Part shown: positions 1,253 to 54,190 of the stretch, in pieces
How positions within the stretch are numbered: position 1 is the stretch's first letter
Layout of the letters: each line of letters begins with the position of its first letter
Source: Cucumis sativus
Lineage: Eukaryota; Streptophyta; Magnoliopsida; Cucurbitales; Cucurbitaceae
DNA: 64,000 bases
Assembly: GCF_000004075.3 (NCBI RefSeq)
Contig: NC_026657.2
Span: 18,357,501 to 18,421,500 of the forward strand
Direction: 5' to 3'
Program-made: the position numbers and the translations under genes
Notes under the pieces: model-generated
Seen by the model: the letters and a program-made list of their open reading frames with translations, nothing else
The model's database searches: none
What the model was told of the DNA's origin: nothing

Positions 1253-2380
1253 ACCATATTGAAACTCTAAAAAACACAACCAATGATGAAAATCAAATAG
1301 AGGAGACAACCATCGGTTTTAGTGTCGTCATCGCCGTCGATGCTCAAATGAGTGCTGCCATGGATGAATGGTTCAGCTGCCTACAAAAAATGATGAAAAT
1401 AAATTCTCGTAAGTTCTGCAGTTGTTCGCATCACCGAGCATGTCTATGTGCCGTTACCGTACACGCGTCGATTTTTCCTCCTTAGATGGTGTCGGTCATC
1501 CCATTTATGCAACCATTTTCTTCATTTGCAGCCTATATTGCTCCTCACACCCGAATTTATGTACTGCCACCTAATTTTGGTCAGCCACCACCACTTTTGC
1601 CGTCAAATCTGTATGCTATGCCACCTATTGATCCAAGTTATCATCCCGATGTTAAGAATCCTCAAAATCACTCAACATTTGAGGTTGACACATTCCAACC
1701 ATAACTTGCAAGCTTCCTCGAGAATATCTCAATAGCATTTGAAAGGGCTTTGAAAATAGATCACAACACTTGAGGTTACCTTAAGACTACATCCAATATT
1801 TTTGTACCGATGTATTATGAGAATCCATAAACCCGTTCCCTAATTTGTCCTCTCCTTATGTGACTAATTCCATGGCTCAATCTTCGACATATCATCTTCA
1901 AGGAAAAAAGTTGAATGATAATAACTATTTCTCATGGTCTTAGTCGTCCTTGAAGAACAACATAAACTTAGCTTTCTAACAGGGGAAATACCTCGCCCCC
2001 TATCGGTTGATCCAAAGGAACTATACTGGAAGGTGAAAAACTCTATTCTTGAATACATATTGATCAATAGTATGGAACCTTAGATTGACAAGTTGTTACT
2101 GTTTGCTACAACAACCAAAGATATTTGGGACACGACCTAGACACTTTACTTCAAATGTCAGAATACATCTCGCCTATACACGCTGAGGAAGCAGGTTCAT
2201 GAATGCAAGCAAAGAACCATAGATGTCACATTTTTTTTTAATAAGCTTTCTTTTTATTTGGCAGGAAATGGACCTATATAGAGAACTAGTCTGACATGAT
2301 TCGAGTGTTAGTGTGTAGCACTCTAGAATTGAAGAGTGATAGGATTTTATGACTTTCTTGCTAGGTCTTAATTCTAACCT
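1253..2380 (+). pseudogene. Decayed Ty1/Copia gag (truncated)
   Basis: Reading plus-strand frames from about 1486, a Pro-rich N-terminal stretch (1486-1704) is followed from about 1873 by the Copia gag signature: a KLNDNNYFSWS tract, then SLKNNIN, a region ending in [18 protein letters not shown], and near 2262-2378 remnants resembling EMDLYREL and DFLAGLN. These match the plant Copia gag order (gag N-terminal, then UBN2-type capsid domain). The frame is broken by many stops and shifts, for example TAG in place of a Trp codon near 1940. The gag stops abruptly at about 2376-2383, where the minus-strand Gypsy reverse transcriptase begins, so protease, integrase and RT are missing. Recognition is by motif order and the element is certainly non-functional. 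Confidence 0.75.
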
Positions 2381-5047
2381 TTGCTTAAGGTTCTGAAAAC
2401 TATCCTCACAAGCTGGACTCCAAACAAATGGAGTTCCCTTCCTTGTCAACTGAGTCAAGGGAGTAGCCAAACGTGAAAAATCCTCCACAAACCTCCGGTA
2501 ATACCCTGCTAAACCCAGAAAACTACGAACTTCACTAACTGTAGAGGGTCGAGACCAACTGGTAACCGCTTCAATCTTTGCAGGATCTACAGAAACTCCC
2601 TCACTGGAAACCACATGCCCAAGAAAAGCCACCTGCTTCAACCAAAATTCGCACTTAGAGAATTTAGCATACAGTTTATTGACTCGAAGAGTCTCTAACA
2701 CTTTATGTAAGTGTTTCTCATGTTCGGCCTCAGTCTTGGAATAAACCAAAATATCATCAATGAAGACTATCACAAAAGTGTCTAAGAAATCCTTAAACGG
2801 GTCCATAAATACTGCAGGTGCATTAGTCAAACCAAAAGACATTACTATGAATTCATAATGTCCATACCTCGAACGAAAAGCAGTCTTAGGAATATCACTG
2901 TCTCTAATCCTCAACTGGTGATAACCTGACCGTAAGTCAATCTTAGAGAACACCGTGGCTCCCTTTAACTGATCGAACAAATCATCGATTCTAGGTAAAG
3001 GATATCTGTTCTTGATTGTTACTTTATTCAACTCTCTATAGTCAATGCAAAGACGCATCGACCCATCCTTCTTCTTCACAAACAATACTGGTGCACCCCA
3101 AGGCGACACACTAGGTCGAATAAAACCTTTGTCAAGCAACTCCTGTAACTGTACCTTCAGTTCTTTCAACTCGGCAGGAGCCATCCTATAAGGGGCTCTA
3201 GAAATGGGAGTAGTGTCTGGCTCCAACTCAATGGCAAAATCAATATCCCTATGTGGCGGAAGTCCTGGAAGATCTTCTGGAAACACATCTGGGTACTCTC
3301 TTACCACAGGTTCTGAAGTTAAAGAAGTCTCATCTTCCCTAGTATCCACCACACTTGCCAAAATACTCCAGGTACCCTGGTTGAGCAGTTTACTAGCTTT
3401 CATAGCTGAGATTACTTTAGGCAATACTACGGTTCCTACCCCTTTGAACTTAAAGCTAGATTCGGTAGGGGGACTGAACACAACCTCCTTACGAGAACAA
3501 TCAATACTAGCATGATTAGTAGCTAGCCAATCCATACCTAAAATTACATCAAAGTCACGCATATCTAATACCAACAAGGTTACGTCCAGCACACGACCAG
3601 CTATCTCAATTTCACATGCTTTAATCTTTTCCTTAGACAACATAATTTCTCCAGACGGTGTAGACACTGACAAGACATAATCTAAGGGTTCCACCTCTAA
3701 GCATGCATGCGTCACAAAAAGCGATGAGATAAATGAATGAGAAGACCCTGAGCCAAACAAGGTTAAGGCAAAATGCCCTAACACTGGTAATGTACCTGTC
3801 ACCACTGTGCCGACCTTCTCTGCTTCTGATCTATTAGTGGTAAAGATTGTACCCCGCTGTGGAGGTCTTGCTCCCTGACTGCTCTGTCCAGCCCCAGTAG
3901 ATCTCAAGGGACATCGATCAGCCATGTGTCCCTCTTGCTTGCACTTAAAACAGACTCTCGTTCCCATCAAACAACGACCCAGGTGGCATTTCCCACACGT
4001 ATTGCATAGTGGCTTCTTTCTAGTAGTGTCTCCTGCCCCACCAGAACTCTGCTGGAAACTGTGAAAAGGATCGCCTGATCTCAAGTTTCTCTGAGGAACT
4101 CCCACAATTCTCTGCTCTGCTTTCCTCTTCTGACCAGACGACGTTCCCTTATCAGAACTCCTTGCCTGAATTTCATCCTTCCCAATACTCATATCCACTG
4201 CCAGACGCAGCGCTTCAGCCTGGGTAGTAGGCTTTAGTGCTCGCACAAAACCTCTAATCTCATCTCTCAATCCTTTGACAAACCTCTCAGCTCTAGCCTG
4301 CTCATTACCAACAAGTTCAGGGGCAAAGCGCGACAGCATATCAAACTCCTGGTTATACTCCTCAACTGTCATGTGTCCTTGCTTCAATTCCAAGAATTCC
4401 TGGCTTTTGGCGTCTCTAAGGTTAGCCGAGAAAAACTTGGTATAGAAGCAGTCTTTAAACTGATCCCAAGTGATCTGTCTCACATCTCCACCCAACATAC
4501 GCATCGTAGTCCTCCACCAAATAATACCTCTGTCCCTCAGAAGAAAAGCAGCACACTGAACCCTATGCTCCTTTGGACATCTCATGTAATTAAATATGGC
4601 TTCCACAGAGGACAACCACAACTCCGCTTTAGTAGGATCCTCCAGTGACCCATCAAACGTCTGAGGGTCATATTTCCTAAAGTCCTCTCAAATGTTTCGC
4701 CTCAGCAGAAAGTTGGTTCGGTAGTATCTGTGCGGCTGTTGTGCAGCCAATCCTTGTGCAGGAGGGGCTGCTGGTGTAGGTGGAGCTGCTGGTACAAGGG
4801 GAACCACAGGTGCAGGCGGAACAACTGGTGCAGGTGGAATTGCAGGTGCCTGCTGGTTCTGAGCTATAGCCGTCATAAGCTCCGTGAACCTCTGCTCCAT
4901 GTGAGTAGACAGTGCAGCAAACTCAACGTGAGTCACGGGTGCAGTAGGAATTCGCTGTTCAGCTTGACCCTCAGTAGGTTGATTACGACCTGCTCCTCTA
5001 CCCCGGCCTCTACGACCTCCTCTACGAACACCTCTCTTTGGCGGCAT
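2376..5047 (-). pseudogene. Gypsy gag-pol (gag, protease, RT), truncated
   Basis: One reading frame runs from the ATG at 5045-5047 (basic Arg/Gly-rich start MPPKRGVRRGGRRGRGRG) down to the truncation at about 2376, broken only by an in-frame TGA at 4688-4690. In order: Pro/Ala-rich gag N-terminus; retrotransposon gag domain (about 4620-4190, with [15 protein letters not shown] and the [19 protein letters not shown] tract); a CCHC zinc knuckle [14 protein letters not shown] (about 3955-3910); aspartic protease (about 3765-3480); RT (about 3200-2520, with LRSGYHQL and the catalytic FIDDILVYS near 2752-2766). The protease motif reads [10 protein letters not shown] where the family has DSGSS, so the catalytic Asp is lost. 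RT has also lost a few residues before the FLDTFVIV segment. After the tract ending LKQRL the frame runs into Copia sequence, giving a meaningless tail. The copy encodes no working polyprotein. Confidence 0.93.
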
Positions 5048-5283: not shown

Positions 5284-7296
5284 TGTAACGACCTAACTTT
5301 TTACCTAAGTCGATGTCATTAACGTTTGACAAAAGACCTTGGTTAATTAAAATTTCAAACCTCAAAAGAACAAAATTTATTTTGTTTGTTTGGGCCCCAG
5401 TTTTAAATTACTAAAATCCACATGAAAATTTAAAACTAAAAAGTTTCAAATCTTTGAATACTTTAAAACCTTAAAATTTTCTAAACAGTCTCACGTTCGA
5501 ATACAAATAATACTATAAATCACTAAGCGGAAGCAAAATTTTAAAGTGTCCCTTGTGGCGGTCACGCTTCCTTCCTGCCCCTCGCCGGTTTGCCGCATTT
5601 ATTACCTTTGCCTGAAAAATTAAACTTAAGGAGGGTGAGTATAAAAATACCCAGTAAGAGACCTTCTATTGGTCCCGTCAGGGGAAAATAAATTTTTAAC
5701 ATTCTATTGGGACACCCTGTACAGTCGCAGTCTTGTGATCCTGTAGGATGCACATTTCAGTCTAATGCCCCGAGGGACGTACATTTCAGTCTAGTGTTCT
5801 GCAGAAACACATATCAGTCTAATGCTCCCGAAGGGTGCAGAATAATTGGTGATCCCGTTGGACACCTACAAGGCACACATCCCAATAAAAGCTAACAATT
5901 TTTCCCCTCAGTCCATTCTAAACTTTTAAACAGTTATTCATAGTTCAGTTAAATATTCTCATTTCATAAACTCTTCACTTGGTCCCTAACAGTCATCTTA
6001 TTTGAACTTAGCTCAAGGCCAGTCAGAAGCACGTCAGTACATCAGTGAACAACTAAACAATCATAACATCCACTTTAGTCTACAAGGACACAACCACGAC
6101 CTTTCCTCAATTCACAGAAACACAATCATAACCATATATCATATATTCAGTCAAACGACAATCTACCAGTTCCACCCTACATTTAAGCAAGAACATCTAT
6201 AACTTTCGGTCATTCAAAATCCATATGTGTAAAAATACATATCCAGTCAGTCACATCCAGTCAGTCACAGCATGCACTCAATACCAAGTCCACATCATTC
6301 CATACATAAATATATCTGTCTTTCCTAGTTAAACACAATATACACTAAATTCCAATTTAACCATACAGTCCAACATAACTCAAAATTTTAGGTGAGTCCA
6401 GTAGAAAGTCCCTTACCTCAAAGTTAGGGAACCTCCTTAATCAACTAACGTCCACGAAACAATCCTAAGCCTAACAATACAAAATTCGATTACTTTCACG
6501 ATACATATCTCACTTACTTTCCTCAACGTAAGTTCCAACTCACCGAAGTATTGGCGAACTGAACCCTCAACAATTCACAAATTGGTTGTGAATTTAAGGG
6601 GCCCAACGTTACTCCCAACACCTTCAAGAATCAATTAACAAATTAGCTAAACATTCCAACCATTCCAACCATAACGCTTGAACCACTTTGAAACAAATTA
6701 CCATTCATACTTAAATTATTACCAACAAAGCAACCTCGATAAGATTGTAAAACAGAGGCAGCGGCACACCTTGACGCACGACTGTCGAACTCGCAATAAA
6801 AATCCTAAGTGTGGGTCGGTCAGCGGTCGGCTAAAGGAGATGTGGCGGCTGGGCTTCACAGATGGAGATCGACGCGAACAAACCGCGAATCTGAACGGTT
6901 ACAACAAATCTGAACGGTTACAGCAACTAGTCAGCCGACGTCGATAGCAGGTGGAGCGGCGGAGCTTCGCGAAACAGAGTGATTCGTGATGGAGAGACGG
7001 CGTACGGCTGGACTTGGCTTCGACGGAGACAGAGGTTGCGCGGCGGGGCTGGGCGGACGGTCACGCGGCGCTGGGAAGCAAACAGAGGAGAAAGGAGAGG
7101 GGAGACAGCCGGCGGTTGGGCTGCGGCGAACGGAAGGGAAGAGAGGGAGGCGTGCGGCTAGGGTACAGGAAGGAGAAGAAGAAAAAAAATGGAGAGAGAG
7201 GGGTTTGCGCGCGGGAGGAAGAAGAAAGGGAGATTTTCTTTTCTTTTCTTTTATTTAATTTAATAATAAAATTATAAAATAAATAAATATATATAA
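5284..7296 (-). repeat. Gypsy 5' LTR, main part (left of the nested MULE)
   Basis: The plus strand starts TGTAACGACCTAAC. It shares long blocks with the LTR at 58923-61074: the tract around 5560-5700 (GTCACGCTTCCTTCCTGCCC, then GGTGAGTATAAA and CCAGTAAGAG), the following CAGTCTAATG repeats at about 5755-5890, and the AGTCCCTTACCTCAA tract near 6410. A GC-richer zone at 6760-7200 contains overlapping chance frames and corresponds to 60200-60860 in the other LTR. LTR sequence continues at 14289 beyond the MULE. Confidence 0.87.
7288..7296. other. 9-bp target-site duplication of the MULE (left)
   Basis: TATATATAA lies immediately before the MULE end and is repeated exactly at 14280-14288. Nine bases is the usual duplication length for Mutator-like transposons. 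Confidence 0.9.
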
Positions 7297-7359
7297 GGAT
7301 TTTTTTTAAAAATAACGTGTCTTGTGAAAGTATTTTCAAAAATAGGGTAGTTGGGAAAG
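7297..7359 (+). repeat. MULE terminal inverted repeat, left
   Basis: Starts GGATTTTTTTTAAAAATAAC. Its reverse complement matches 14217-14279 at all but about four of 63 positions, by my own base-by-base comparison. Confidence 0.9.
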
Positions 7360-7424
7360 AAATTATAAGAATAAGGTTGTTTCCCAAACTATTTTCAAAA
7401 ATAGGTGTTTTTTTGAAATTGAAC

Positions 7425-7588
7425 GAAGTCGTGTACGAGGTACACGACTTCCAAATGAAATTGAACGAAGTCGTGTACGGGGTACACGACTTCCTAAATG
7501 CACATGTCAGCACATTTGACCACTTCGCTCCACGTATGCACGAGTTTGACCCATGTGGACGGAAGTCGTGGACGGGGTACACGACTTC
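7425..7588. repeat. Three subterminal palindromes, left side of MULE
   Basis: Near-perfect 27-bp palindromes at 7425-7451, 7467-7493 and 7562-7588. Each has arms GAAGTCGTG and CACGACTTC around a GTAC-type centre. Four more lie near the right end. Repeated motifs just inside the termini commonly bind transposase; that role is inferred here. Confidence 0.85.
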
Positions 7589-7940
7589 CTAAATATATGT
7601 TTGTAAAATTATTATATTTTAAAAGATTAACAAAATTAGTTTTTGTTTAAATGGCCAAATTTTTGGTAGTTTATGTTTATTATGAACAAATTAAAAAAAT
7701 AAACCAAAGTTAAACACATCATGAGTGATATCTTATAAGAATTTTGAACGTTTTTTTTTAATACTTGGTTCTCTACTTTTAAAAAATATATATTATATAT
7801 TGATATTATTAAGAATACTCCTACATCTAAATCATATATTAGCAACTTCTAATTTATAATTAATTTAAAAAAGTTCAACTTTTTATTTATACAACTTGAA
7901 TAAGTTCTAGCAAAATTTAAAAACACTTAAATTATACAAC

Positions 7941-9667
7941 TTAAGAAGCTTCCCCATCTCCCTCTACGACATCATCGCCTTGTCGTCGTCGTCGCCGTCG
8001 AATGCGTCTACGATCTGTGTCGGCAACATTTAAACGTCGAGTCCGCTGAACAAGGCTGTCTATATCTCCCATGACTTCGTCACACATTGGACTAAAAATT
8101 TCAAAATTGTTTTCCATGGAGACTCGACGTACGTCTTCAACAAAATTATTCTGAACGATTGTAAATAATATAATTAAAAAATGTTCATGCTTGTATTAAA
8201 TTTATAAATCATATTAAAACTATTACCATGCGATAACAGTAAGCGTCATCAGGTGTCATGAAGCGTCGGGTAATCGACGTGTACCAGGAAAAGTAGTTAT
8301 CTGATACTGTGGGCTTCTGTGTTGCTTCTGCTTCGGCACAAAAAAGTATTTCGTGAATGCCACATTGCTATATGCTCTGCATGAATCCTACTCCAATCTT
8401 GATCGTGCTTGCCTCTTAAATCAATTTGGTGTAGGCCCTGATCTGTGGAGCAAAACTCTGGTGGCATTTGTAGCATATGGAACTGTCGCAATACACGATC
8501 TGCTTGATGCTTCTCAACGAGATGAAAGCAAATCATAGGACCCACATATGTCCACATCGCTTGACCGTTATGACATTGACGTGGAAGCAATGCCATAATG
8601 TGGGACGTGTATGGTGTCCAATTAATCTGTTAAAAAAAACGAACATAAGGAAACAACAAAAAACATGCCTACGCAATATTGAATATAATATTTTACTACC
8701 TGAAGAGTTGATCAGCCGATCAAAAAACATTCGGTAGGTGATCAACATATTTGCGGACAGTTCTGACAATGGTATAACGCCGCTCCATCTAATGTGAGAA
8801 ATGAAATCATTAATAAGTTATAAACCTTGCAAATTTTACTAAAAATAATATATATATATAATAATACCTGAAACTCAAAGGTCGACCAACTGACACCTCA
8901 ACTGGTACTTGTGGTGCCAGAATAGGAAATCTGTCATACGCCCATACTTGCAACAATATTAATGGGCCAGCAATCTCTAAAGATCGTGCATTACTCGCTC
9001 GACACAATTCCCTATACAACCATGCGAGGCATGCAGCGCCCCAAGCGTACGTACCAGCCTGGTCAAAATTAATTAAAAGCGGGAGGAACATATAGTGGAC
9101 CAGGGTGTTTGATTTGTCTGTAAATAGAAAGCCTCCAATTAATTGCATAATGTATGCACGAGCGTATCTTTGAACGCTCACTACATCAGCATCTGGTGGC
9201 AATTCTGTGAACTGTTCTGCCAACCAAGGAAGGCTCAATCGTTGACCTTTCATTTCAGGTGGACGAACTCCCAAGTAATCCTCACATAGTACCTTCCAGT
9301 CATATAATAACGACCCTACCACAGGCTCACCATCCACAGGTAACCCTAACTGAACTGCAACATCCTGTAGGGTGATCGTGCATTCCCCACAAGGCATATG
9401 AAATGTGTGGGTCTCTAGTCTCCAACGCTCGATCAGAGCAGTAATCAAATGCCAGTCCAACTGCATAAATCCTATTTGGGAAGCCCCTAGAAATCCAGCA
9501 GCCTCTAAATATGGTACAATACGCTGATCAAATGGGATCGTACGCTGAGATGCTGCCTCTCTTCGTCGACAACTCAAAACAACTGTGGAGGATGCCTCCC
9601 ATATAGACTGTGAACGATGGGATGGTTGTAGATATAGCTGTGTAGGATCACTCGGCCCAGGTTCCAT
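7941..9667 (-). CDS. Plant-mobile-domain (aminotransferase-like, PMD) protein carried by the MULE
   Basis: Likely exons on the minus strand are 9667-8868, 8788-8700, 8626-8227 and 8150-7941, with GT/AG at the three introns. Exon 1 gives a typical PMD N-terminal half: a Pro/Gln-rich start (MEPGPSDPTQLYLQPSHRSQ), then YLEAAGFLGASQIGFMQLDW, a WRLETHTFHMPCGECTITLQ tract (about residue 95), VAVQLGLPVDGEPVVG, and a WAYDRFPILAP tract near residue 250. Exon 2 continues with the RWSGV core and exon 3 with INWTPYT. Exon 4 ends in a basic RRRIRRRRRRQ tail and TAA at 7941-7943. PMD proteins include host nuclear factors of the MAIN/MAIL1 type and copies carried by transposons; the biochemical role is unclear and the name 'aminotransferase-like' is historical. 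The exon 2/3 junction as drawn is out of phase, and an A-run at 8340-8345 shifts exon 3, so this copy may be damaged. Sure of the domain, less of the splice sites. Confidence 0.85.
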
Positions 9668-9876
9668 TATGCAAATAACCTAAAAAATATCGAAATACTA
9701 TGAGGATCAATTGACCCAAATTCCATTACATGATTACAATATTATAAATTTAAGTTATTAATTTTAAATACCAATAAATTATAATTAAACTATTCATCAA
9801 ATATTAAGATATACATCAAACAATTACATAGAAGTTATGCATTAAGAATTACATCAAACCCTAAAATAATTACATA
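9668..9876. other. Spacer between the two MULE genes
   Basis: 209 bp of AT-rich sequence with no ORF. It holds the transposase 3' end region and presumably the PMD promoter. Confidence 0.6.
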
Positions 9877-11890
9877 TCAGTGTCTTGAAGAAGAAGCACG
9901 TTCAGGACAAGTACGTCTGTTATGTCCTTCTACTTTACAGATCGTGCATCTAATTGATTGACTAGACTCTTTCCAATCCATTTCATTTTGGATCCTTGTA
10001 GTTCTTGGTCGACCGGGTCCTTTAAGTAAGTCCGCATTGGGGCGAACTTCAGTGAATGATATCTCTGGCCAATAATCTGAGTGTTGGATTGGATGGAAGC
10101 GACCGTCATAACAACGTTTGAATGTCGACAACAAGTAGCATTCATCAATGTATGGTACGTATGTCAAGTGCATGTAATTACAAATTGCAATTACATGCGA
10201 ACACGGAATCTTAAACGACTGCCACTTATTGCAAGAACATGTCCCTTCCATCAAACTTACTACCTGTGTGTGTTGGCCTTTGTATGGAGAAGTCATACTC
10301 ATACCCGTGTGAACCTCAAATGTCTGGGTTTCTCTATCAATGGATGTCACTGAATGTGCAGAAGCTCGTTTTTCCCACTTCTTAAGCTTTCTTATCGCAT
10401 ATTTCGTATAAATATCACCACGATCGAGTGCTTCACTTATCTCAGCTCGCCGACGTTCGAAATAAAGGATTGTGCGATAAAATGTTAGTCTAACCAAAGA
10501 AGTGATGGGTAACATTCGAGCTCCTTTAAATACACCGTTCATACATTCAGCTGCATTGCTTGTCATCCACCCATATCGAGACCCATTGTCATGTGACTGA
10601 GTCCATTTTTCCACGTCAATATCTTCAAAAAACTCAAGACACTCTGGGTTCAATCGTTGTAGTTCTTTCATTATTTTTATAAATTTGCGCCTTTGGTGTT
10701 GATTACCTGCCCTAAACACCAAGTCTTTCAGTTGCTTTGATTTATATTTCTGATTGAAGTTGCTAGCAACATGACGAAGACAATATCGATGGACAGCTCG
10801 AGGTTCACTCCAACCTACCTCTTCATTGTTAATGGCAGAAAGAATGTCCCTATGTCTGTCAGAGATCAAGCAAATACCATATCGATCAGTAACGTATTCG
10901 CGAAGTGCACGAAGAAACCATGACCAACTAGACGTGTTTTCCCCTTCCACTATAGCAAATGCAAGAGGAAATATATGACCATTTGCATCAATCGATAAGG
11001 CAGTTAACATTTTTCCCTTATACTTTCCATACAAATGGGTTCCGTCGATCTGAATTAATGGTCTACAATGCTTGAACCCTTCTATTGCAGGACCAAATGA
11101 CCAGAAAACCCTTCCAAAAATGGTTGTACCTGGTACATCGGATGGAAGAAAAAACCAATCAACTCGAGTTCCCGGATTATAATGTACAACAGCACTCAAC
11201 CAGTATGGAAGCTCATTATATGATTTCTCCCAATCACCAAAAACTGTTATCAAAGCTTTTTTCTTCGCTTGCCAAACTTGTCCATACTTAACACCGTAAC
11301 CGTATTGTTGTTTTATGATTTCCATAAGCACAGACACAGTAATAGTAGGATCGGCTTTCACCATGTTTTGAATTTGAACACTCATGAAATTTGAATCTAA
11401 CTGTGAGTGATCTTGTGTTAGATTTGAGTACAGACACGAGTGCTCTCCTTGGAGCTTAGTTATCTCAAACAATCCGTGGCTCTTACGCTTCGTACCACGT
11501 AACCTCCAGTTGCAGCCATTAGTCCACTGTTTGCATCGAATATTCCACAAATGTTGGTTTGATTCGACTACAACAATTTCATAGTGTTGTGTCACACAAT
11601 ACCTCTTAACAGCCAACATAAGATCTTCCTTAGAGTCAAATATCATTCCCTTCTGTATTAAACAAGATGTGTCAACAGATACATTTCTATCTGTCAATGT
11701 ACAACCTTGTTCACAAACAGAATTCGCAATGTCCCAATCTATTTGTGCAAATATATTGGACGGGATTCATTTCATTCTCTTCCTCTATATTTTCTTCATT
11801 ACCAAATAGTTCATCGACTTCTACATCTATATCACTATCTCCATCATTACCAGGTTCAAGAATAACTAAATCTTCAGGTCGCAACGACAT
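9877..11890 (-). CDS. MuDR-class MULE transposase
   Basis: Cut-and-paste transposase acting on the MULE ends. A 606-residue open frame spans 11697-9877, and coding-like sequence continues up to an ATG at 11888-11890 (start MSLRPEDLVILEPGNDGDSD, acidic). The two parts are in different frames; a C-run at 11762-11764 is the likely place of a one-base shift, so the N-terminus is probably broken in this copy. Seen in order within the 606 residues: MuDR N-terminal zinc-binding region (about 15-90, with GMIFDSKEDLMLAV, CNWRLRG and GEHSC); MULE DDE domain (about 215-320, with IDGTHLYGKYKGKML and LISDRHRDI carrying the first acidic residues and a YCLRHVASNF tract after them); SWIM zinc finger CSCNKWQSFKIPCSHVI (about 485-500); C-terminal CCHC knuckle CTICKVEGHNRRTC. 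Length and domain order match full transposases of this class. The ATG at 11890 follows a good splice acceptor (11901-11902). Confidence 0.93.
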
Positions 11891-11995
11891 ATTTAATTAG
11901 CTGTTAAATACAAAAACGATCATCAGTTTAATGTATCTATTTATTTTATTAGTAATGTAGTGTACACAAAAAAGTGTACACAGTAAATGTATGGT

Positions 11996-12047
11996 TTATT
12001 ATTATTATTATTATAATTATAATTATAATAATAATAATAAATAATTA

Positions 12048-12079
<32 letters not shown>

Positions 12080-12081
12080 GG

Positions 12082-12120
<39 letters not shown>

Positions 12121-12352
12121 GTTATTGTTATTGTTATTGTTATTGTTATTATTGTTATTATTATTATTGTTATTATTGTTATTATTATTGTTATTATTGT
12201 TATTATTGTTATTATTATTGTTATTGTTATTGTTATTGTTATTGTTATTGTTATTGTTATTGTTATTGTTATTGTTATTGTTATTGTTATTATTATTGTT
12301 ATTATTGTTATTGTTATTATTGTTATTATTGTTATTATTGTTATTATTATTA

Positions 12353-12424
<72 letters not shown>
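11996..12424. repeat. Long TTA/TTG trinucleotide microsatellite
   Basis: About 430 bp of TTA units with interspersed TTG units, some blocks alternating TTATTG regularly (about 12120-12290). It produces long homopolymeric open frames (poly-Ile/Val, poly-Leu, poly-Asn) in several frames that are not genes. Confidence 0.97.
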
Positions 12425-12425
<1 letters not shown>

Positions 12426-12865
12426 AGTTAAAAAAACAAAAAAAATACACTAAGGTTAATGGTGCATTAATTAGGTTTTCCTTTTAGATTTTTATTAATA
12501 ATTGTATTTTTTAATAATAACCCCAATAATAATTATTATTAATAAAATCATTATTATTTTTACTATTATTTTTTTATTATTAGTCAAATCAAGATTATTT
12601 TTTATTATTTTATTATTATTACTATTAGTCAAATCAATTGGGAAAGAAAAAAAAAAGTACATTTAACATTAATTAGGTTAGGTTTTGATTTTTTTAATAA
12701 TTATTATTTTTAATAATAATAATAATTATTATTGTTATTATTATTATTAGTCAAATCAATCGGGAAAGAAAAAAAAAGGTACATTTAACATTAATTAGGT
12801 TAGGTTTTGATTTTTATTAATAATTATTAGGTTAGGTTTTGATTTTTATTAATAATTATTATTTT

Positions 12866-12901
<36 letters not shown>

Positions 12902-13140
12902 TAATAAGGTTAAAAAATAACAAAATTCAGAAAAAATATAATAAAATTCAAGGCATATAACAAAACTCAAAAGATATAACAAAATTCAAATATATAACTA
13001 CATTAAAAAATATAACTAAATTCAAAAATATAACAAAATTCAAAAATATAACTAAATTCAAAATAACATAACTAAATTCAAAATAACATAACTAAATTCA
13101 AAATAACATAACTAAATTCAAAATAACCTAACTAAATTCA
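12425..13140. repeat. AT-rich simple and tandem repeats inside the MULE
   Basis: TTA/TAA-rich blocks with a repeated tract around TTAATTAGGTTAGGTTTTGA (copies near 12670, 12790 and 12830). A 20-bp tandem repeat with core ATAACTAAATTCA runs at about 13020-13140, at least four near-identical units ending AACATAACTAAATTC. Confidence 0.85.
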
Positions 13141-13370
13141 AACAATTTTTTTCCACAAAATAAGAAAATAAAATAACAAATCTAAATAAAATTAGGGTTA
13201 GACTAAACATACCTTGTGAAGATGAATGAGACAATGGAGGATAGGAGACAATGGAGGATAGGGGAAGCCTACAACAAAAAATAAATTATTTTATCAACAT
13301 AATAATAAAATAAAATAATTTTAACAACAAAATCGTATACCCCGTCCACGATTTTTAGAAAAACATACCT

Positions 13371-13868
13371 TTATAAGGTAATAGAAGAGGAAAAGTGAAG
13401 ATGAAGAGAAAATTTGAAGAGGAAAAGTGAAGAGATGAAGAGAAAATTTGAAAGGAAAAATGGATGAGAGGAAAAGAGAAGAGGGGAAGAGGAAATTTGA
13501 AGTTGGAAGGGAGAATGAAATAAGAAGAGAAAAGATGAAGAGGGGGAAAGGAAAGATGAAGTTGGGATGAAGAATGGGTTAGAAAGAGGAAAGATGAAGT
13601 TGGGATGAAGGATGAGTTAGAAAGAGGAAAGATGAAGTTGGGATGAAGAATGGGTTAGAAAGAGGAAAGATGAAAGATGAATGAGAGAAAAAACTAGATG
13701 AAGGAAGATGAAATATGAAGGAAGAGGAGAGGAAATATGAAGGAAGAGGAGAGGAAATATGAAGGAAGAGGAAAGGAAAGAGGAAGGAAGAACGAAAAAG
13801 ACGAAGAGGAAAAGTTTAGAGAAGAAGGAAAAATTGTTTGGGATGAAGGCAGAATGAGAGAAATTTAG
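13371..13868. repeat. Half-kilobase purine-rich tract with tandem repeats
   Basis: Almost all A and G on the plus strand. It includes three tandem 38-bp units at 13555-13668 (each starting GATGAAGTTGGGATGAAG) and about three 22-bp units with core GAAATATGAAGGAAGAGG at about 13705-13775. On the transposase strand this would be a CT-rich leader. Confidence 0.85.
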
Positions 13869-13884
13869 GGTTTTTAAAATAGGT

Positions 13885-14195
13885 GAAGTCGTGTACCCGG
13901 TACACGACTTCCTGCATGCGCGACACGTGTCCGCTCCCTCTGCACCCTACGTCCACCCGTGAACCCTACGGTTGACTGGACTGTTGACCGTTGACTCATT
14001 GTACGGAAGTCGTGGACGGGGTACACGACTTCCATCATACGCGGCAAAATGTGCCAGCTGTACGGGAGTCGTGTACCGGGTACACGACTCCAGTCAGAAA
14101 ACGTGGGCCGGGTCCACGACGCCACTCGGATATCGTGAGCCCGGTCCACGACACCAAATCCATTTGTGGAAGTCGTGTACCCCGTACACGACTTC
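13885..14195. repeat. Four subterminal palindromes, right side of MULE
   Basis: Palindromes at 13885-13911, 14006-14032, 14066-14090 (25 bp, arms one base shorter) and 14169-14195, same arms as on the left side. Half-sites with GGTCCACGAC occur near 14110 and 14142, and a decayed copy near 13333-13352. Confidence 0.85.
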
Positions 14196-14216
14196 AGTCA
14201 CCTATTTTTGAAAATA

Positions 14217-14279
14217 CTTTCTCAACTACCCTATTTTTGAAAATACTTTCCCAAAACACATTATTTTTAAAAAAAATCC
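14217..14279 (-). repeat. MULE terminal inverted repeat, right
   Basis: Mirror of 7297-7359, ending in AAAAAAAATCC on the plus strand. A second partial copy of its CTATTTTTGAAAATACTTT block lies just inside, at about 14202-14220. Confidence 0.9.
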
Positions 14280-14288
14280 TATATATAA
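14280..14288. other. 9-bp target-site duplication of the MULE (right)
   Basis: TATATATAA, identical to 7288-7296. Confidence 0.9.
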
Positions 14289-14412
14289 TTATATTATTAC
14301 ATTTTCAAATCTTCTTTCTCCCCCTTCAACATATTTTCTTCAAAAAAATAAATCTTGAACAAATCGAAAAAAATTTCTTAAAATAAAATACCTTCGAGTT
14401 TGGGGTGTTACA
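14289..14412 (-). repeat. Gypsy 5' LTR, outer end (right of the MULE)
   Basis: Continues the interrupted LTR and ends GGGGTGTTACA, as the LTR at 61074 does. On the minus strand this is the TGTAACACCCC start of the LTR. Confidence 0.85.
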
Positions 14413-18035: not shown

Positions 18036-21000
18036 AATAAAAAATCAAATGAAAGCAAAATGTAAATTAAATTAATAAGAAATGTACTTACTTTAGAGCT
18101 TTCATCAATCTTTTTCTTTTCCTTGATTTATTGACTGAACATTTAGCTTTTTCAATTTTTCTGGATAGTTTTTTACTTTTCATTTCTTGTTTGATCTTTC
18201 TATTTTTACAATAGACACAATAAAACATATGATAAAATCATTTAGTTTGTATAGCTATCAGAGGGTCATTGAGGTTATCACACATGCTACTCAAAATTTA
18301 AAACAACAAATAATAGGAATCAGATGGCAATCATACAAAAATCGGAAGGTAATATCGGTTAGAAAGTTAAAGATGAGCACAAAATGGGATAACAAATAAC
18401 ACTACTACAAAAATGAGTTTACTTGACGCTAGCAACTTTTACATACTTGACGTTTTTATTAAAAAAACGTCAAGTATGAACTATGTTAAAGAAAAAACGT
18501 CAAGTATAGTCTTAAAAAATATGAAGTTTTCACGAATTTTTTTTAATTATTTTATGTTAGCTTTATTTGACGTTTTTTTTTTTTTTTTTTTTTTGCGTCA
18601 AGTATAAAGTAGATTTTACTTGACATTTTATTCGAGTTAAAAGTAGTGAACATTTACTTGACACAAAAAACATGTCAGGTATGGTTTTAAAAAAGAAAAT
18701 TTTTACGTTAACTTTTATATGACATGGTTTTCGCGTCAAATATAATGGAGATTTATTTGACAGTTTATTCGCGTCAAATATAGTGGAGATTTTACTTGAC
18801 GTTTTTTTCGTGTCACGTATAGTGGACATTTACTTGACGCGAAAACAACGTCAAATATAGTTAACATTTTTTATTTAACACTTTTAAAATGTCAATTGCC
18901 AAAATGTCATATAAAACGTTTAAAAATATGAAAATAAAAAGTATAAAAATCAACTTATTAAAATAATTTTTTAAAATCAACTTATTAAAATAATTTTTTT
19001 AAAATCAACTTATGAAAATAAATCTTTTGAAATTTTTCACTTAAATAATTTGAAATCTCTCATTAAATTAAATTTACTAAAATCTCTCGTTAAAATAAAT
19101 TTGTTGAAAATTTTCCTTTAAATAAAATTATTGAAAATATTTCCTTAAATAGATTTATTAAGATATTTTAATGAAAAACTCAATAAATAAATTTATTAAA
19201 ATATTTTAATAAAATATTATTAAATAAATTTTTTGAAATCTTTCACTAAAACAAACTTTTACAAATTTTTGACTAAAATAAATTGGTTGAAATCTTTACT
19301 TAAATTAAATTTATTAAAATCTTTCTTTTAAATAAACCTATTGAAAATATTTTATTTAAATAAATTTATTGGAACCATTTCTTTAAATAAATTTATTAAA
19401 ACATTTTAATGAAAAGTTTATTAAAATACTTTAATAAAAAATTGTTAAATATTTTTTTTGAAATTTATCACTAAAATAATTTTTTGAATTCATTAAAATA
19501 AGTTTATTGAATCTTTCCTTTATAACAATTTTATTGAAAATATTTTATTAAAATATTTTATACAAAATTTATAAATAAATTTATATATTTTAATGAAATC
19601 TTAAGTAAATTTATCAAAGTATTTTGATGAAATGCTTATTTAATAAATATTAAAATATTTTAATGAAAACATTATTAAATGTATTTGTTAAAAACTTTAA
19701 CGAAAATATTATGAAATAAATTTATTAAAAAAATTAATAAAAAAATAATTAAATAAATTTATTGAAATCTTTCATTAAAATATTTTACCAAAACAGATTT
19801 GTTGAACTGTTTCACTAAATAAATTTATTTAAATATTTCATCAAAGAAATTCATTAAAATATTTTATTGAAATGATTATTAATGAAATTTATTGAAACAT
19901 TTTAATAAATTTTAAATGGATCAACTTTTTGGATTGTTTAGTTTTTAGTTTGTAGTGTAGATTAATAATAGATCCAATTTATTGGTATATCTCCATAATT
20001 ATTTACTTTTACACATCATTTATCACTACTCACATAAAAAAAATTACAAATTTTGTGACATGATTAGACAATTTGATAGACAAAAATAGGTGATATCCAG
20101 GAGATGCATATCTAAATATTGTGTTGGTAAGTGATATAATATTAAGTTCTCGCACATCAACTTGATTTTATGAAGTTTTGTTTAATAAAAAAATCATTTT
20201 ATTAAAGTGAGCATATATAACTCAATTCAGTTATTTACCAAAAAAATTAAAATCAAAATAATTTAGGGTTTCATTTTTCTTTTTTTGTTTCTTTTTATGG
20301 AAAGATTGAAGATCTTGGAAACCTAAAACATAATTTAAGAAAATTGTTTAATGATAGCGAAAATTAAGAATAAATTAATAAAAACAAATAAATTGAAACA
20401 AAAACTCACAAACCGCTCTATTTAATTTTTTTTAAAATGATATAATTAAAAAAAATATTATCAAAAACTAAGAAATAAAGAAAAATAATAATAATAATAA
20501 ATTGAAAACAAGGTACAAATCCATTGTTTTCTAATTTTCACCCTTTCAACTTATTTTCTATTATCAATTCCTAATTTCTCCTATAAAAACCTTCTTTCCT
20601 AATTCAAAAAATATTCATCATCTCAAATCTTTATATTCTCATGATCAATCCATGGATCTTTCTCAAAAGTTAACAAAAACTCATGTAATTTTCTTTCCTT
20701 TTTAATGTTTCTTTCATTTTTTTCTATAGAAATTTTCATGTTGATTATTAAAAATGATTAGTGGGCTTTTTTTTCAACTTCCTCAATAACACTTCTTTCC
20801 TTTTATATATTGTTAAAAAAGGTATCCAATGAAAAGATGAAAAATTTATTGCTTTTCAAGTTTTAACCTTAAAACAATATATATGGAAAAAATTTATATT
20901 TATATATTGTTAAAAAAGCTTGTTTTATTTTATATTTATATATGAAAAAAATAATTTTTTGAAAAGTTTATCAAATATATTTATTGAAATATTTTAATTA

Positions 21001-21104
21001 AATTTATTAAATTCATTTAATTAAAAATATCAAGTAAATATATTAAAATCTTTTATTTCCCTATTTTTAGTAATCCCTCACGTCTCCACGATGAAACCCT
21101 ATTC

Positions 21105-21375
21105 TCATCTCCACGCTTCCACACAACACAGGCGAACGACCACTTCTTCGAATCGACGGACGACTTCCACACAACACAGAGTGGCAAACGGCGAATGACT
21201 TCCACACGACGAACGCTTCCACCCTGCGAACAGCTTCTACCCGGCGAACAGCTTCAACCCGTTGCGAACAGCTTCAACCCGACGAACGGCTTCCACGCAG
21301 CGAACAACTTCCACAGTGAACGGCTTCCACGACTGCGAACATCTTCCGCACGGCGAACTGCTTCCGCGTTCAAAG
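21105..21375. repeat. GC-rich minirepeat island inside CACTA copy A
   Basis: About 14 degenerate units of roughly 18-20 bp built on GCGAAC…CTTCCAC, in sharp contrast to the AT-rich surroundings. The frame at 21195-21407 is a by-product. The equivalent in copy B is about 29315-29585. Confidence 0.8.
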
Positions 21376-21841
21376 GTTTTTATGCTCCTCATTCTTATTG
21401 TATTTAACATTTTTCAATGAATAATGCTCCCTTGAATTTGATTTATATCTTGTAATTAAGGATGATATTGTAAACCCAAAGTGAGAAAAACACAAAGAGA
21501 AGAAAATTGAGAATGACTCTCGTATATTTATATTTATTTGTGTTATATGTTTATGTTGTTTATGTTCAAATTCGTAAACAAATGGTATAATCTAATTGAC
21601 AAATCGAGAAGACCATCATTTTTCTTTATTGTTGTTTTTTTTACAGGAATGAGTAATGAAAAATTAAGGGTGACTCTTGGATGTTTTAGACCGTAATTAA
21701 TTTGTTGTCGTTATGGTTATAATTATCATATTGATTTGTTTATAGTAATGAGTAATGAATTGGTATATTTACTCTTGGTAAGATTCATACTTTTGAATGC
21801 CATTTTTTTTATAGTAATGAGTAATGAATTGATCTTGTGTG

Positions 21842-22492
21842 CATCATCATATCCCAATTACACATGCATCTTGGAAGCTGGTGTCGACTGAGTTGAAAGA
21901 AAAAGTATACAATATGATTGAGGTATGTAATCATCCTTCTCATTTGGAAATCATGCAAATACTACACACTTATTGTATATTTTGAGTCATACTATCTTGT
22001 GGTTATCCTGTAGCCTTGGTAGCCCCGTAGCATTGGTAGCCAATCATGTATATATTACACAGTTATTGTATATTTTAAGTTGTATTATGTGTGGCTATCC
22101 TGCTATGGTAGCCAATCATGCATATATTGGTAAATGTAAATATATTTATAAAATAATTTTTATTTTAATCTAGCACATAATATAATATATATGCATTGTT
22201 AATTGGTTGTGTTATAGTGTTCTTTACAAGTAGGTACGGTTGAATGTGGATATTATGTCATGAGATACATGCAAGAAATTGTGACTAAGGACACAAACAT
22301 TATCACTGGTGCGGTATGTTTTTAAACTATTTACATTATAAAGTTATAGATAGTATATTATGACTAACTCAAATATTTTACAAAGTGTATCCTACTTTTT
22401 ATGTTTTATAGATTGATACAAGAAGCCCATACACACAGCTTGAATTGGATAGACGAGGGGAGTGGGCTGGATTTTTAGCTCGGTACATATGA
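21842..22492 (+). pseudogene. Ulp1/C48-type SUMO-protease C-terminal remnant in CACTA copy A
   Basis: Three exon-like pieces with consensus splice sites. The first ends at 21922 (WKLVSTELKEKVYNMIE, then GTATGT). The second is 22218-22313 (after TTATAG, before GTATGT), encoding CSLQVGTVECGYYVMRYMQE, which carries the Gln and Cys context of Ulp1 proteases (Q…ECGYYVMRYM). The third, 22412-22492, encodes IDTRSPYTQLELDRRGEWAG and stops at TGA. Reading phases join cleanly. The His and Asp part of the catalytic triad, which lies upstream in this family, is not seen, so only a C-terminal fragment is present. Ulp1-like genes are well known as cargo of plant transposons; transcription is not testable here. 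The same exons occur inverted in copy B. Confidence 0.75.
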
Positions 22493-23357
22493 TAGACACA
22501 CCTAGATATGATCATGTTAATTTTGTAAATGGCTAAGATATGTGAATGCTCATAACCTTTTTGTGGAAACGTTTTGTTCATAGCCATTATGAGGGCAAAA
22601 GATATATGGGGATAGACTTCAATTTTGATTATATAAGACAACTATTATCATTTAATATTTTGGAATAGGACACATATAGGAAATTTTAGTTGGCTATATT
22701 GGATTGGAATTGTGTAATTGTTGATGACATTGTTGAGAATAATGAAATTATTGTTGGTTTACATATTATACTAAACTTTTTGTCCTTTTTTTTGTTGTGT
22801 AATTGTTCGTTGGAGAATTTGTTTTGTTTATGGATATGTCTTATTGAAGTAAATGTATGTAATGCAGGAAATAAAAAATGAAAAAAGAAAAATTTAGTAT
22901 ATTTAATATATTAATAAATGGTATACATGACATTAAATACATGTCACATATACTATCTTATTTGAGTTAAATATACCATTTTACTTGATGGATATATAGT
23001 GTCAACTATAAAATTTTACTTGACATATACATAATGTCAAATATACTATCTCACTTGACAGGTAAATAGAGTCAAATATATATCTTACTCGACTTGTAAA
23101 TAGTGTCAAGTATACTATCTCACTTGACAGGTAAATAGAGTCAAGTATATAATTTACTCGACGTGTAAATATTGTCAAGTATACTATCTTACTTGACACA
23201 AAAATGATGTCAAGCAATAGAGTACTTGACGTTTTTTTAGTGTCAAGTAATAGAACTATACTTGACAGTCGATTACTTGACGCTTTTTAAAACGTCAAGT
23301 ATAGATTTACATGACACTGTATTAATGTCAAGTAATTCAATTTTTGTAGTAGTGTAA

Positions 23358-27256: not shown

Positions 27257-27332
27257 ATTACTCAAGCTGTGTAACCTAAAGTTTGGAGACTTTCTACTTG
27301 GCTTGTTCTTAAAATAAGAAAATGGATGCAAT
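27257..27332 (+). other. 3' UTR of MLP gene 1 before the CACTA insertion
   Basis: Contains 27270-27328, a 59-bp segment that occurs again, identical, at 32309-32367 on the far side of the CACTA element. The target duplication AAT is at 27330-27332. Confidence 0.8.
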
Positions 27333-28194
27333 CACTACTACAAAAATTGAATTACTTGACATTAATACAGTGTCATGTAAATCTATACTTGACGTTTTAA
27401 AAAGCGTCAAGTAATCGACTGTCAAGTATAGTTCTATTACTTGACACTAAAAAAACGTCAAGTACTCTATTGCTTGACATCATTTTTGTGTCAAGTAAGA
27501 TAGTATACTTGACAATATTTACACGTCGAGTAAATTATATACTTGACTCTATTTACCTGTCAAGTGAGATAGTATACTTGACACTATTTACAAGTCGAGT
27601 AAGATATATATTTGACTCTATTTACCTGTCAAGTGAGATAGTATATTTGACATTATGTATATGTCAAGTAAAATTTTATAGTTGACACTATATATCCATC
27701 AAGTAAAATGGTATATTTAACTCAAATAAGATAGTATATGTGACATGTATTTAATGTCATGTATACCATTTATTAATATATTAAATATACTAAATTTTTC
27801 TTTTTTCATTTTTTATTTCCTGCATTACATACATTTACTTCAATAAGACATATCCATAAACAAAACAAATTCTCCAACGAACAATTACACAACAAAAAAA
27901 AGGACAAAAAGTTTAGTATAATATGTAAACCAACAATAATTTCATTATTCTCAACAATGTCATCAACAATTACACAATTCCAATCCAATATAGCCAACTA
28001 AAATTTCCTATATGTGTCCTATTCCAAAATATTAAATGATAATAGTTGTCTTATATAATCAAAATTGAAGTCTATCCCCATATATCTTTTGCCCTCATAA
28101 TGGCTATGAACAAAACGTTTCCACAAAAAGGTTATGAGCATTCACATATCTTAGCCATTTACAAAATTAACATGATCATATCTAGGTGTGTCTA

Positions 28195-28845
28195 TCATAT
28201 GTACCGAGCTAAAAATCCAGCCCACTCCCCTCGTCTATCCAATTCAAGCTGTGTGTATGGGCTTCTTGTATCAATCTATAAAACATAAAAAGTAGGATAC
28301 ACTTTGTAAAATATTTGAGTTAGTCATAATATACTATCTATAACTTTATAATGTAAATAGTTTAAAAACATACCGCACCAGTGATAATGTTTGTGTCCTT
28401 AGTCACAATTTCTTGCATGTATCTCATGACATAATATCCACATTCAACCGTACCTACTTGTAAAGAACACTATAACACAACCAATTAACAATGCATATAT
28501 ATTATATTATGTGCTAGATTAAAATAAAAATTATTTTATAAATATATTTACATTTACCAATATATGCATGATTGGCTACCATAGCAGGATAGCCACACAT
28601 AATACAACTTAAAATATACAATAACTGTGTAATATATACATGATTGGCTACCAATGCTACGGGGCTACCAAGGCTACAGGATAACCACAAGATAGTATGA
28701 CTCAAAATATACAATAAGTGTGTAGTATTTGCATGATTTCCAAATGAGAAGGATGATTACATACCTCAATCATATTGTATACTTTTTCTTTCAACTCAGT
28801 CGACACCAGCTTCCAAGATGCATGTGTAATTGGGATATGATGATG
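28195..28845 (-). pseudogene. Ulp1/C48-type protease remnant in CACTA copy B
   Basis: Reverse-complement counterpart of 21842-22492. Exons are 28845-28765, 28469-28374 and 28275-28195, with the same splice sites and the VECGYYVMRYM motif. Same limits: only the C-terminal part, with the catalytic His and Asp region missing. Confidence 0.75.
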
Positions 28846-29314
28846 CACACAAGATCAATTCATTACTCATTACTATAAAAAAAATGGCATTCAAAAGTAT
28901 GAATCTTACCAAGAGTAAATATACCAATTCATTACTCATTACTATAAACAAATCAATATGATAATTATAACTCATAACGACAACAAATTAATTACGGTCT
29001 AAAACATCCAAGAGTCACCCTTAATTTTTCATTACTCATTCCTGTAAAAAAAACAACAATAAAGAAAAATGATGGTCTTCTCGATTTGTCAATTAGATTA
29101 TACCATTTGTTTACGAATTTGAACATAAACAACATAAACATATAACACAAATAAATATAAATATACGAGAGTCATTCTCAATTTTCTTCTCTTTGTGTTT
29201 TTCTCACTTTGGGTTTACAATATCATCCTTAATTACAAGATATAAATCAAATTCAAGGGAGCATTATTCATTGAAAAATGTTAAATACAATAAGAATGAG
29301 GAGGCATAAAAACC

Positions 29315-29585
29315 TTTGAACGCGGAAGCAGTTCGCCGTGCGGAAGATGTTCGCAGTCGTGGAAAGCCGTTCACTGTGGAAGTTGTTCGCTGCGTGGAAG
29401 CCGTTCGTCGGGTTGAAGCTGTTCGCAACGGGTTGAAGCTGTTCGCCGGGTAGAAGCTGTTCGCAGGGTGGAAGCGTTTCGTCGTGTGGAAGTCATTCGC
29501 CGTTTGCCACTCTGTGTTGTGTGGAAGTCGTCCGTCGATTCGAAGAAGTGGTCGTTCGCCTGTGTTGTGTGGAAGCGTGGAGATG
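29315..29585. repeat. GC-rich minirepeat island inside CACTA copy B
   Basis: Reverse complement of the island in copy A (units around GTGGAAG…GTTCGC). The open frame at 29468-29662 arises from it and is not a gene. Confidence 0.8.
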
Positions 29586-32302: not shown

Positions 32303-32661
32303 AATATATGTAACCTAAAGTTTGGAGACTTTCTACTTGGCTTGTTCTTAAAATAAGAAAATGGATGTGTAATATGTAATGTGTGTCGTTTTATGTCTGT
32401 TATGGATGCATGTGTAGTTTAATTTGGGGATCGGAATAATGTATAATATATTGCAAGTACTTGTAAAATTGAAAATCTATCATTATTGTGTGTGTGTCAA
32501 AGCTCTCAAGCGTGTGTGTCAATATCTCTAATTGGCTAATGGATCACAACTTCATGTATGCAAAATAATTTGTTGATCAACTTATTAAAATGTATTTGGG
32601 AATTAAGGATATATCCTTTATCTTAAATTGTAAGCCATGCATTCTCAAATTTTGAAAGGAG
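32303..32661 (+). other. Displaced distal 3' UTR and downstream region of MLP gene 1
   Basis: Starts with the target duplication AAT, then the second copy of the 59-bp 3' UTR segment (32309-32367). TG-rich and AT-rich sequence of the kind seen at plant 3' ends follows (for example AATGTATAATATATTGC near 32436). Before the CACTA insertion this was probably the rest of the gene's terminator region. Confidence 0.6.
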
Positions 32662-53029: not shown

Positions 53030-54190
53030 AAGGTTGAATTTGTTTCAACTTTTGTTGTTGGTAAGTTGCATTGGAAAGGACTTGGAAGTTAGACACATGT
53101 TATTAAATTATTAAATTGGTTCCTTTTATGTTTAGGATTGGGCTCATTGATTTTGATTGTCAACGAAGGAAATATTGTTTTGGCTAATCTCAAGGTAAGA
53201 TATTCTATTACTAGAATTTCAAAACAGAATTAAGAGCTTAGATGTAATTTTTTCTTATTATGCATTGATGTAGCTAAGATGCATAATGTGATTGTTATGG
53301 ATGATAGATATAGATGGCTACACAGATTACCAATATTCTATCACTGAGATATGATATGACCGAGATATGTTATGACTGAGATATGATATGACTAACATGT
53401 TATGACTGAAATATGGTATGACTATATTATGATATTGACAATATGTTTCATGTTATAGACTGTAGTGTTCTGTTAACTTTGTCTGTTAGGGTTGTACCCA
53501 TATGGGGTGTCCCTCGAAATCACCACCTTTTATGATTGTGCGTGCTCAACGGGACTACCATTTTGTCATAATAACTTTTATAACTTTTATGAGTGATTTG
53601 ACGGAGTGACTTACAACCCAATTATCTAAGGTGTTCCTTCGAGTTCACCAAAGACCAGATGTGTTCTTACGAAATCACTAGATAGCGTATGTTTGAGAGC
53701 ATGATAGTTATGGGGTACTTCCTTATGGAACCCAAATGAGAAGTTAACAGACACCTAGCAAGACTAGTAATGGGTCCCTTACTGAGTATATATATGTTTA
53801 TACTCACTGTTTCTATGTTTAACTTTTCAAGCAGAGGTAGAGGTAGAGGAAACCTGTCGAATGATAAGAAGTGACCGTGACTTGCCATAGGAAAAATCTT
53901 ATGTCGCCTTCATATTTCAATATTTGAGTTTTAGTTTTTTATTTAAATTTATTGAACTTATGAATTACTTTTATGTTAGTTTTCTTTAAAAGTTAGATAG
54001 GGTCTGAACTAGGACTAAACTTTGTAGTATTTATTTCTATCTATCCAAATTATGAATTATGAAAGATTATTTAAAGTTCTTTATTTAAGAAATTGGTTTC
54101 CTCTTTTTCATTTAAATGGAGTCAAACTATTATTTATTTTATTTAAGAAATTGGTTTCCTCTTTTTCACTTAAAGAGTTGGGTCGTTACA
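53030..54190 (+). repeat. Inverted copy of the second-family Gypsy LTR
   Basis: Reverse complement of the type seen at 15619 and 50672: CCCATATGGGGTGTCCCTC (53497) mirrors AGACACCCATATGGGTAC (16341), and GGGTCCCTTACTGAGTATAT mirrors CCCAGTAAGGGAC. It ends AGAGTTGGGTCGTTACA at 54190, the LTR terminus. Beyond it lies dead TNP2 sequence, so the LTR inserted into, or recombined with, that gene. Confidence 0.7.

Follow-up and report, generated by a model that had tools for sequence, protein, structure and literature searches.

The plant mobile domain (PMD) was first described together with a rice Mutator-like element (MULE), and Ikeda et al. (2017, PMC5418596) reported MULE-carried PMDs, for which an anti-silencing role was proposed, as well as MULE-transposase/PMD-C fusion proteins in grasses and Amborella; a 2021 review repeats the anti-silencing suggestion. 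Table 1 of Dupeyron et al. (2019, PMC6446971) gives PMD as an additional open reading frame (ORF), often antisense, in plant MULE groups 42 and 45-50, the PMD groups being MULE-Solanaceae_1, VANDAL, MuDR-9_OS, MULE-Monocots, MDR, MUDRAVI2 and MUDR. Equating the PMD of that table with the plant mobile domain is our own step, as the abbreviations list of the paper is silent on it and the words "plant mobile" do not occur in its main text. VANDAL MULEs encode VANC, whose anti-silencing activity has been measured and in which DUF1985 and DUF287 occur (Hosaka et al. 2017, PMC5735166). On the host side, eudicots contain mainly genic PMD-C (Nicolau et al. 2020, PMC7156037), and 175 phased small interfering RNA loci have been recorded at PMD genes of tea. 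The question behind the present analysis is what PMD does for transposons and why plants use PMD relatives to silence them. Here, we analysed a 64,000-nucleotide stretch of the cucumber genome (Cucumis sativus, NC_026657.2, positions 18,357,501 to 18,421,500; hereafter the window), in which positions 7297-14279 are occupied by a 6,983-bp MULE that carries a transposase gene and a PMD gene.

The cucumber element was compared with each of these systems. With the groups of Dupeyron et al. it shares a SWIM-finger MULE transposase, a PMD as extra ORF and, where tabulated, 9-bp duplications and inverted ends; by these Table 1 features, the only ones compared, it differs in that their PMD is often antisense, whereas that of the window lies downstream in sense. 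The fusions of Ikeda et al. likewise unite a MULE transposase and a PMD in one element, but as one fusion protein, where the cucumber element has two genes 209 bp apart and belongs to a eudicot. VANDAL21/Hiun (PMC5735166) is also a MULE that bears an additional gene and has motifs repeated in its non-coding DNA. Its VANC carries DUF1985, which PMD resembles weakly, but it has DUF1985/DUF287 in place of PMD and a YAGTATTAY motif in place of the palindromes found here. The host proteins MAIN/MAIL1 (PMC7156037) share the PMD domain, but their genes lie outside transposon ends. The first-pass annotation had ranked the element as a candidate for an incompletely described system, a description that PMC6446971 (Table 1) and PMC5418596 do not sustain: PMD-carrying MULEs are an already known kind, to which the cucumber element adds host-genome evidence for a selected second gene and a testable link to VANC.

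Our reading is that the window holds a defective two-gene MULE, inserted into a gypsy long terminal repeat (LTR), whose PMD protein would be an anti-silencing accessory factor; taken whole, we consider this evenly balanced between right and wrong, while the anatomy and the status of PMD as a selected second gene are held with high confidence. The core ORF of the transposase (11697-9877, minus strand, 606 amino acids) contains MULE, DBD_Tnp_Mut and SWIM domains in Pfam (PF10551, E 4e-20; PF03108, 1e-8; and PF04434, 4e-8, respectively), and a CCHC knuckle in it scores under the curated cut-off. This domain set, the terminal inverted repeats and a 9-bp target site duplication place the element among the MULEs. 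On the same strand, 209 bp downstream, lies the four-exon PMD gene (9667-7941), assigned to its family by PF10536 (206 bits against a curated cut-off of 34.9, with E 1e-60 for exon 1 and E 6e-11 for exon 3).

Copies were sought in the host genome assembly (226.6 Mb, 88 contigs), which yielded at least 150 matches to the PMD exon-1 protein, at least 77 to the transposase and at least 105 to the left end, internal repeats included. A search for full copies with both genes between matching ends, as proposed on the first pass, found one further full-length element, located at C1:13.97 Mb and 6,835 bp long, with about 98% DNA identity in both genes, both of them broken, and a perfect 9-bp duplication of its own. 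The pairing was then counted as PMD exon 1 at most 6 kb downstream of the transposase on the same strand, other orientations being uncounted for the family and its diverged relatives. By this measure, exon 1 follows the transposase at 14 of 18 loci of the same family; two further loci have PMD exon 3 only, and the remaining two are L075, with a 333-bp PMD stub, and a locus whose transposase match covers residues 2-149 only. The same arrangement was found in 6 of 8 diverged relatives (36-73% transposase identity), and a nearby PMD in none of 35 distant transposases (27-32% identity). The partnership between transposase and PMD looks old and maintained by selection. Target site duplications could be followed in 18 family elements apart from that of the window: 12 are perfect (two of these probably represent one insertion assembled twice), one has a 1-nt shift, two have one mismatch, one has two and two have none, compared with 0 of 90 control cross pairs with fewer than 3 mismatches.

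Purifying selection acts on the PMD gene. Across the eight deepest comparisons with the window copy, the ratio of nonsynonymous to synonymous substitution rates (dN/dS) ranges from 0.18 to 0.45, with values of 0.18 against L030 (bootstrap 0.14-0.24), 0.28 against L040 (0.21-0.37), 0.33 against L048 (0.23-0.46), 0.37 against L039 (0.27-0.50) and 0.38-0.45 against L041, L042, L047 and L049; other deep PMD pairs reach 0.70. Corresponding values for the transposase are 0.45 against L048 (0.30-0.68) and 0.50 against L036 (0.28-0.84). Both genes could be set against the window in 11 copies, and PMD has the lower dN/dS in 9, an equal one in L028 and a higher one in L031 (0.58 vs 0.55), although the intervals overlap where given and several dS values are tiny. 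Neutral evolution of PMD in all copies, named on the first pass as grounds for abandoning an element function, is thus not what we found, the intervals for L048 and L030 both lying below 1. Given the conserved pairing and this selection, PMD appears to be a second gene of the element itself and not the product of a chance capture, in agreement with the first-pass annotation. Both observations suggest that PMD benefits the element, which random capture would leave unexplained.

We also considered, and rejected as the main account, that PMD is a passive host gene captured in pack-MULE style, hitchhiking with no role in the element. MULEs often take up host gene fragments according to reviews, every PMD copy examined is damaged, and 17 of the 30 left-end loci have no PMD gene, all of which would suit such a capture. 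A randomly captured gene would be unselected and not kept with the transposase, but the pairing extends to relatives at 36-73% transposase identity, the deep pairs have dN/dS bootstrap intervals that stay under 1, and the PMD exon structure is largely conserved. Passive capture is accordingly very improbable and already largely refuted.

As to function, the transposase of an active element would act on the inverted ends and possibly on the subterminal palindromes too. The PMD protein, with its arginine-rich C-terminus, would serve as a nuclear accessory factor that relieves host silencing of the element family. It could either mimic or poison the MAIN/MAIL1-type PMD proteins with which the host silences, or, like VANC, target the DNA of the element itself. 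We propose this anti-silencing role tentatively, at somewhat less than an even chance. Alternatively, PMD could be a transposition accessory that takes part in excision or reinsertion with the transposase and not a silencing factor, comparable to mudrB, which may help MuDR and is apparently required for integration (Dupeyron et al. 2019, PMC6446971). Such a role would agree with its position next to the transposase, with dN/dS values that are broadly alike for the two genes when the same pairs are compared, and with the fusion proteins of MULE transposase and PMD-C known from grasses and Amborella (PMC5418596). However, host PMDs of known phenotype, in the sources consulted, function in silencing and gene expression, and the distant MULE transposases have DUF1985 (21 of 35) instead of PMD (0 of 35), so that we regard a transposition accessory as rather unlikely.

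The comparison with DUF1985 connects the anti-silencing proposal to VANC. On the opposite strand and no more than 8 kb away, a DUF1985 match accompanies those 21 distant PMD-less transposases, compared with 0 of 26 PMD-lineage loci; within the cucumber genome, PMD and DUF1985 accompany different MULE transposases. Of 6 PMD proteins scanned, 3 match DUF1985 weakly (E 7e-4 to 1e-2), and they do so at shared positions of the profile. The two profiles align colinearly over 118-120 columns with a score of 27.4, against 16.8 for the reversed profile and 10.4-14.1 for three shuffled profiles; an alignment score of 28.5 was reached by none of 300 column shuffles (maximum 25.3), and PMD against eight DUF1985 sequences scored 25.0 (maximum 19.2 in 200 shuffles and 16.2 among 17 decoys). 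No paper in the literature searched names both DUF1985 and "plant mobile domain", and the DUF1985 matches beside distant PMD-less transposases and the weak colinear alignment are new in this analysis. The different partners and the weak resemblance tie the question of what PMD does to VANC, whose anti-silencing was measured, and so make it directly testable. A bolder proposal, which we regard as speculative and unlikely, is that PMD and DUF1985 descend from a single ancient domain family that fills the second-gene slot of plant MULEs, one per MULE lineage and both anti-silencing, with the host silencing proteins MAIN/MAIL1 as relatives of a transposon counter-silencing gene and the palindromes as its targets. 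Sixteen of the distant transposase matches consist of 810-amino-acid open frames without stops and with near-equal scores, many of them near DUF1985 (e.g. C1:10581881, C1:19272680 and C5:30594005), and are possibly a young MULE family.

The palindromes match TCGTGTACCGGGTACACGA with up to 3 mismatches at nine places in the window, all inside the MULE and none in the window outside it, giving 16 matches on both strands against 0.01 expected. Three are subterminal on the left (7425-7588; cores at 7429, 7471 and 7566) and six lie on the right side (13333-14191; cores at 13333, 13889, 14010, 14069, 14133 and 14173). The 17 elements counted have 4-8 palindromes each, mostly at matching positions, and literature searches with the palindrome letters returned nothing relevant by title.

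Several observations weigh against our reading and are considered together. Among 30 left-end loci, each examined about 1.5 kb inward (some 11 further left-end places lie outside this set), 17 have no PMD, 5 have a stub and 8 reach PMD up to the locus edge. The first pass had counted a majority of same-end copies without PMD as decisive against a second element function, which 17 of 30 literally is; those 17 also show no transposase, however, which makes them short non-autonomous derivatives, and PMD membership is more fairly judged on copies that bear a transposase. PMD is also kept in seven elements in which the transposase is gone or nearly gone, L026 retaining 121 bp of transposase DNA. 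The idea that these seven (L023, L026, L029, L035, L037, L038 and L046) form a selected PMD-only lineage was rejected, as they differ in deletion breakpoints and 5 of 7 are without part of exon 1.

Further points of this kind concern the state of the gene copies. Under the splice sites used, all 28 PMD copies, that is the window and 27 others, have at least one lesion (a stop, a frame change or a missing piece), so that the examined copies look dead; transposase-lineage PMDs outside these loci were left out of the count. Recent drift is apparent in the PMD dN/dS of the 173 core pairs whose dS exceeds 0.02, which has a median of 0.63, and in the pooled comparison of the window with recent copies, which gave 0.51 for PMD (19 copies) and 0.70 for the transposase (13 copies), the latter figure and the 11-copy comparison both including L034, whose transposase aligns poorly (13 stops). 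Damage in dead copies raises dN/dS values. Within the DNA read, only 2 of the 8 deep PMD copies have transposase sequence beside them, namely L048 and L039, the latter with a 107-bp piece, and the lowest dN/dS belongs to L030, a copy without transposase that could be a host gene. The link to DUF1985 has counterevidence of its own: no DUF1985 was found within 8 kb on the opposite strand of 14 of the 35 distant transposases, and Pfam gave no DUF1985 match in the window PMD, L030 or L001, with no PF09331 in the window PMD up to E 10. The window PMD is accordingly not a second protein with DUF1985 as VANC is, and has distant similarity only; because the hhalign probability is just 8-12%, the resemblance is treated as a lead. 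Extra conservation of the palindromes relative to spacers was not found, the values being 0.049 vs 0.034 on the left (28 copies) and 0.037 vs 0.048 on the right (13 copies), with L072 omitted as a duplicate. With no more conservation than the spacers, the palindromes are at most candidate binding sites.

The L030 locus (with L083 and L084; G000:C5:31427600-31437700) has to be weighed in connection with another alternative, in which MULE PMDs were repeatedly re-captured from a constrained host PMD gene and inherited its low dN/dS. There, a PMD with a premature stop lies between apparent host genes, whose letters suggest one mannanase-like and one kinase-related product; no transposase was found in the 10.1 kb read, of which 6.2 kb lie upstream and 2.2 kb downstream, and one family palindrome lies upstream of the PMD. 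Re-capture would account for this setting and the low dN/dS, for the five other deep copies without transposase in the DNA read and for the relationship of MULE PMDs to stand-alone PMDs. However, a tree of PMDs from the cucumber genome, rooted on L001, places L030 between the window family on one side and L044 and L050, which are linked to a transposase, on the other (support 75-91). The premature stop and the adjoining family palindrome likewise argue against a constrained host source, and constraint is also seen in pairs that do not involve L030, such as those of the window with L048 and L039. We therefore consider re-capture improbable and retain PMD as a selected gene of the element.

The ends of the element are well defined. 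The terminal inverted repeats (7297-7373 on the plus strand and 14203-14279 on the minus strand) are identical at 59 of their first 63 bases, compared with a best of 34/63 among 2,000 letter shuffles, and at 68 of all 77. Both the 63-bp inverted ends and the perfect 9-bp duplication noted on the first pass were confirmed, the latter being TATATATAA at 7288-7296 and 14280-14288. By itself, the duplication is modest evidence because the flanks are AT-rich: among 36,100 pairs of offsets tried around the ends, 7 match as a duplication, the real pair among them. When the flanks are joined across the MULE, they form a gypsy LTR, and a relative at 58923-61074 with the same GGGGTGTTACA terminus is continuous across the junction; the MULE is therefore a nested insertion in a gypsy LTR. 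At L053, L055-L057, L066, L073-L074 and L076-L077, the terminal repeat recurs about 365 bp inward of the left end, resembling MULEs with multiple terminal repeats.

Three frame breaks were located in the window element, in the transposase N-terminus and in PMD exons 2 and 3. The compact tandem enclosed by intact ends that the first-pass annotation described is thus correct for the ends, but neither gene is intact in this copy, and the frame breaks argue against a present ability of it to transpose. The transposase had been placed at 11890-9877; the core (9877-11697, minus strand), with the MuDR DNA-binding domain, the MULE catalytic domain and the SWIM finger, stands, but the ATG at 11890 is not in the same open frame. 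The N-terminal segment (11698-11890, minus strand) does not share the reading frame of the core here, but does so in both of two copies checked. Splice sites suggest a GT...AG intron in the 5' leader (11901-13212, minus strand), whose putative donor and acceptor are conserved in the copy at C1:13.97 Mb; the copy at C1:11.10 Mb retains the acceptor, and no match to the donor was found. A long TTA/TTG trinucleotide array occupies 12000-12430 within this predicted intron.

For the PMD gene, the domain, four exons, 209-bp gap and strand given on the first pass were upheld, but exons 2 and 3 each contain a frame break. Exon 1 (8868-9667, minus strand as are the others) has 266 codons and the first part of the PMD domain. 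Exon 2 (8700-8788) measures 89 nt here and 88 nt in 25 of 27 other copies. Exon 3 (8227-8626), which holds the end of the domain, measures 400 nt here and 399 nt in 17 of 27; that of L025 is likewise 400 nt, but with its frame break at a different place. Exon 4 (7941-8150) encodes the arginine-rich C-terminus and ends with a stop codon at 7941-7943. All three donors are GT in 19 of the 27 copies other than the window. Single-sequence structure prediction of exon 1 was uninformative (mean predicted local distance difference test score 35.9), comparison with solved structures gave three chance-level matches only (best E 0.072), and no relatives were found in viral contigs, prokaryote genomes or plasmids.

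Elsewhere in the window, two gypsy-like elements lie at its ends (2174-4621, 5284-7296, 14289-14412, 58923-61074 and 61162-62160), and the MULE splits an LTR of the first. An inverted duplication of 4.97 kb (18400-23354 and 27333-32302) is 99.5% identical and is accompanied by an identical 59-bp direct pair (27270-27328 and 32309-32367), and a tandem repeat with a 138-bp period, 99% identical, spans 54073-54358.

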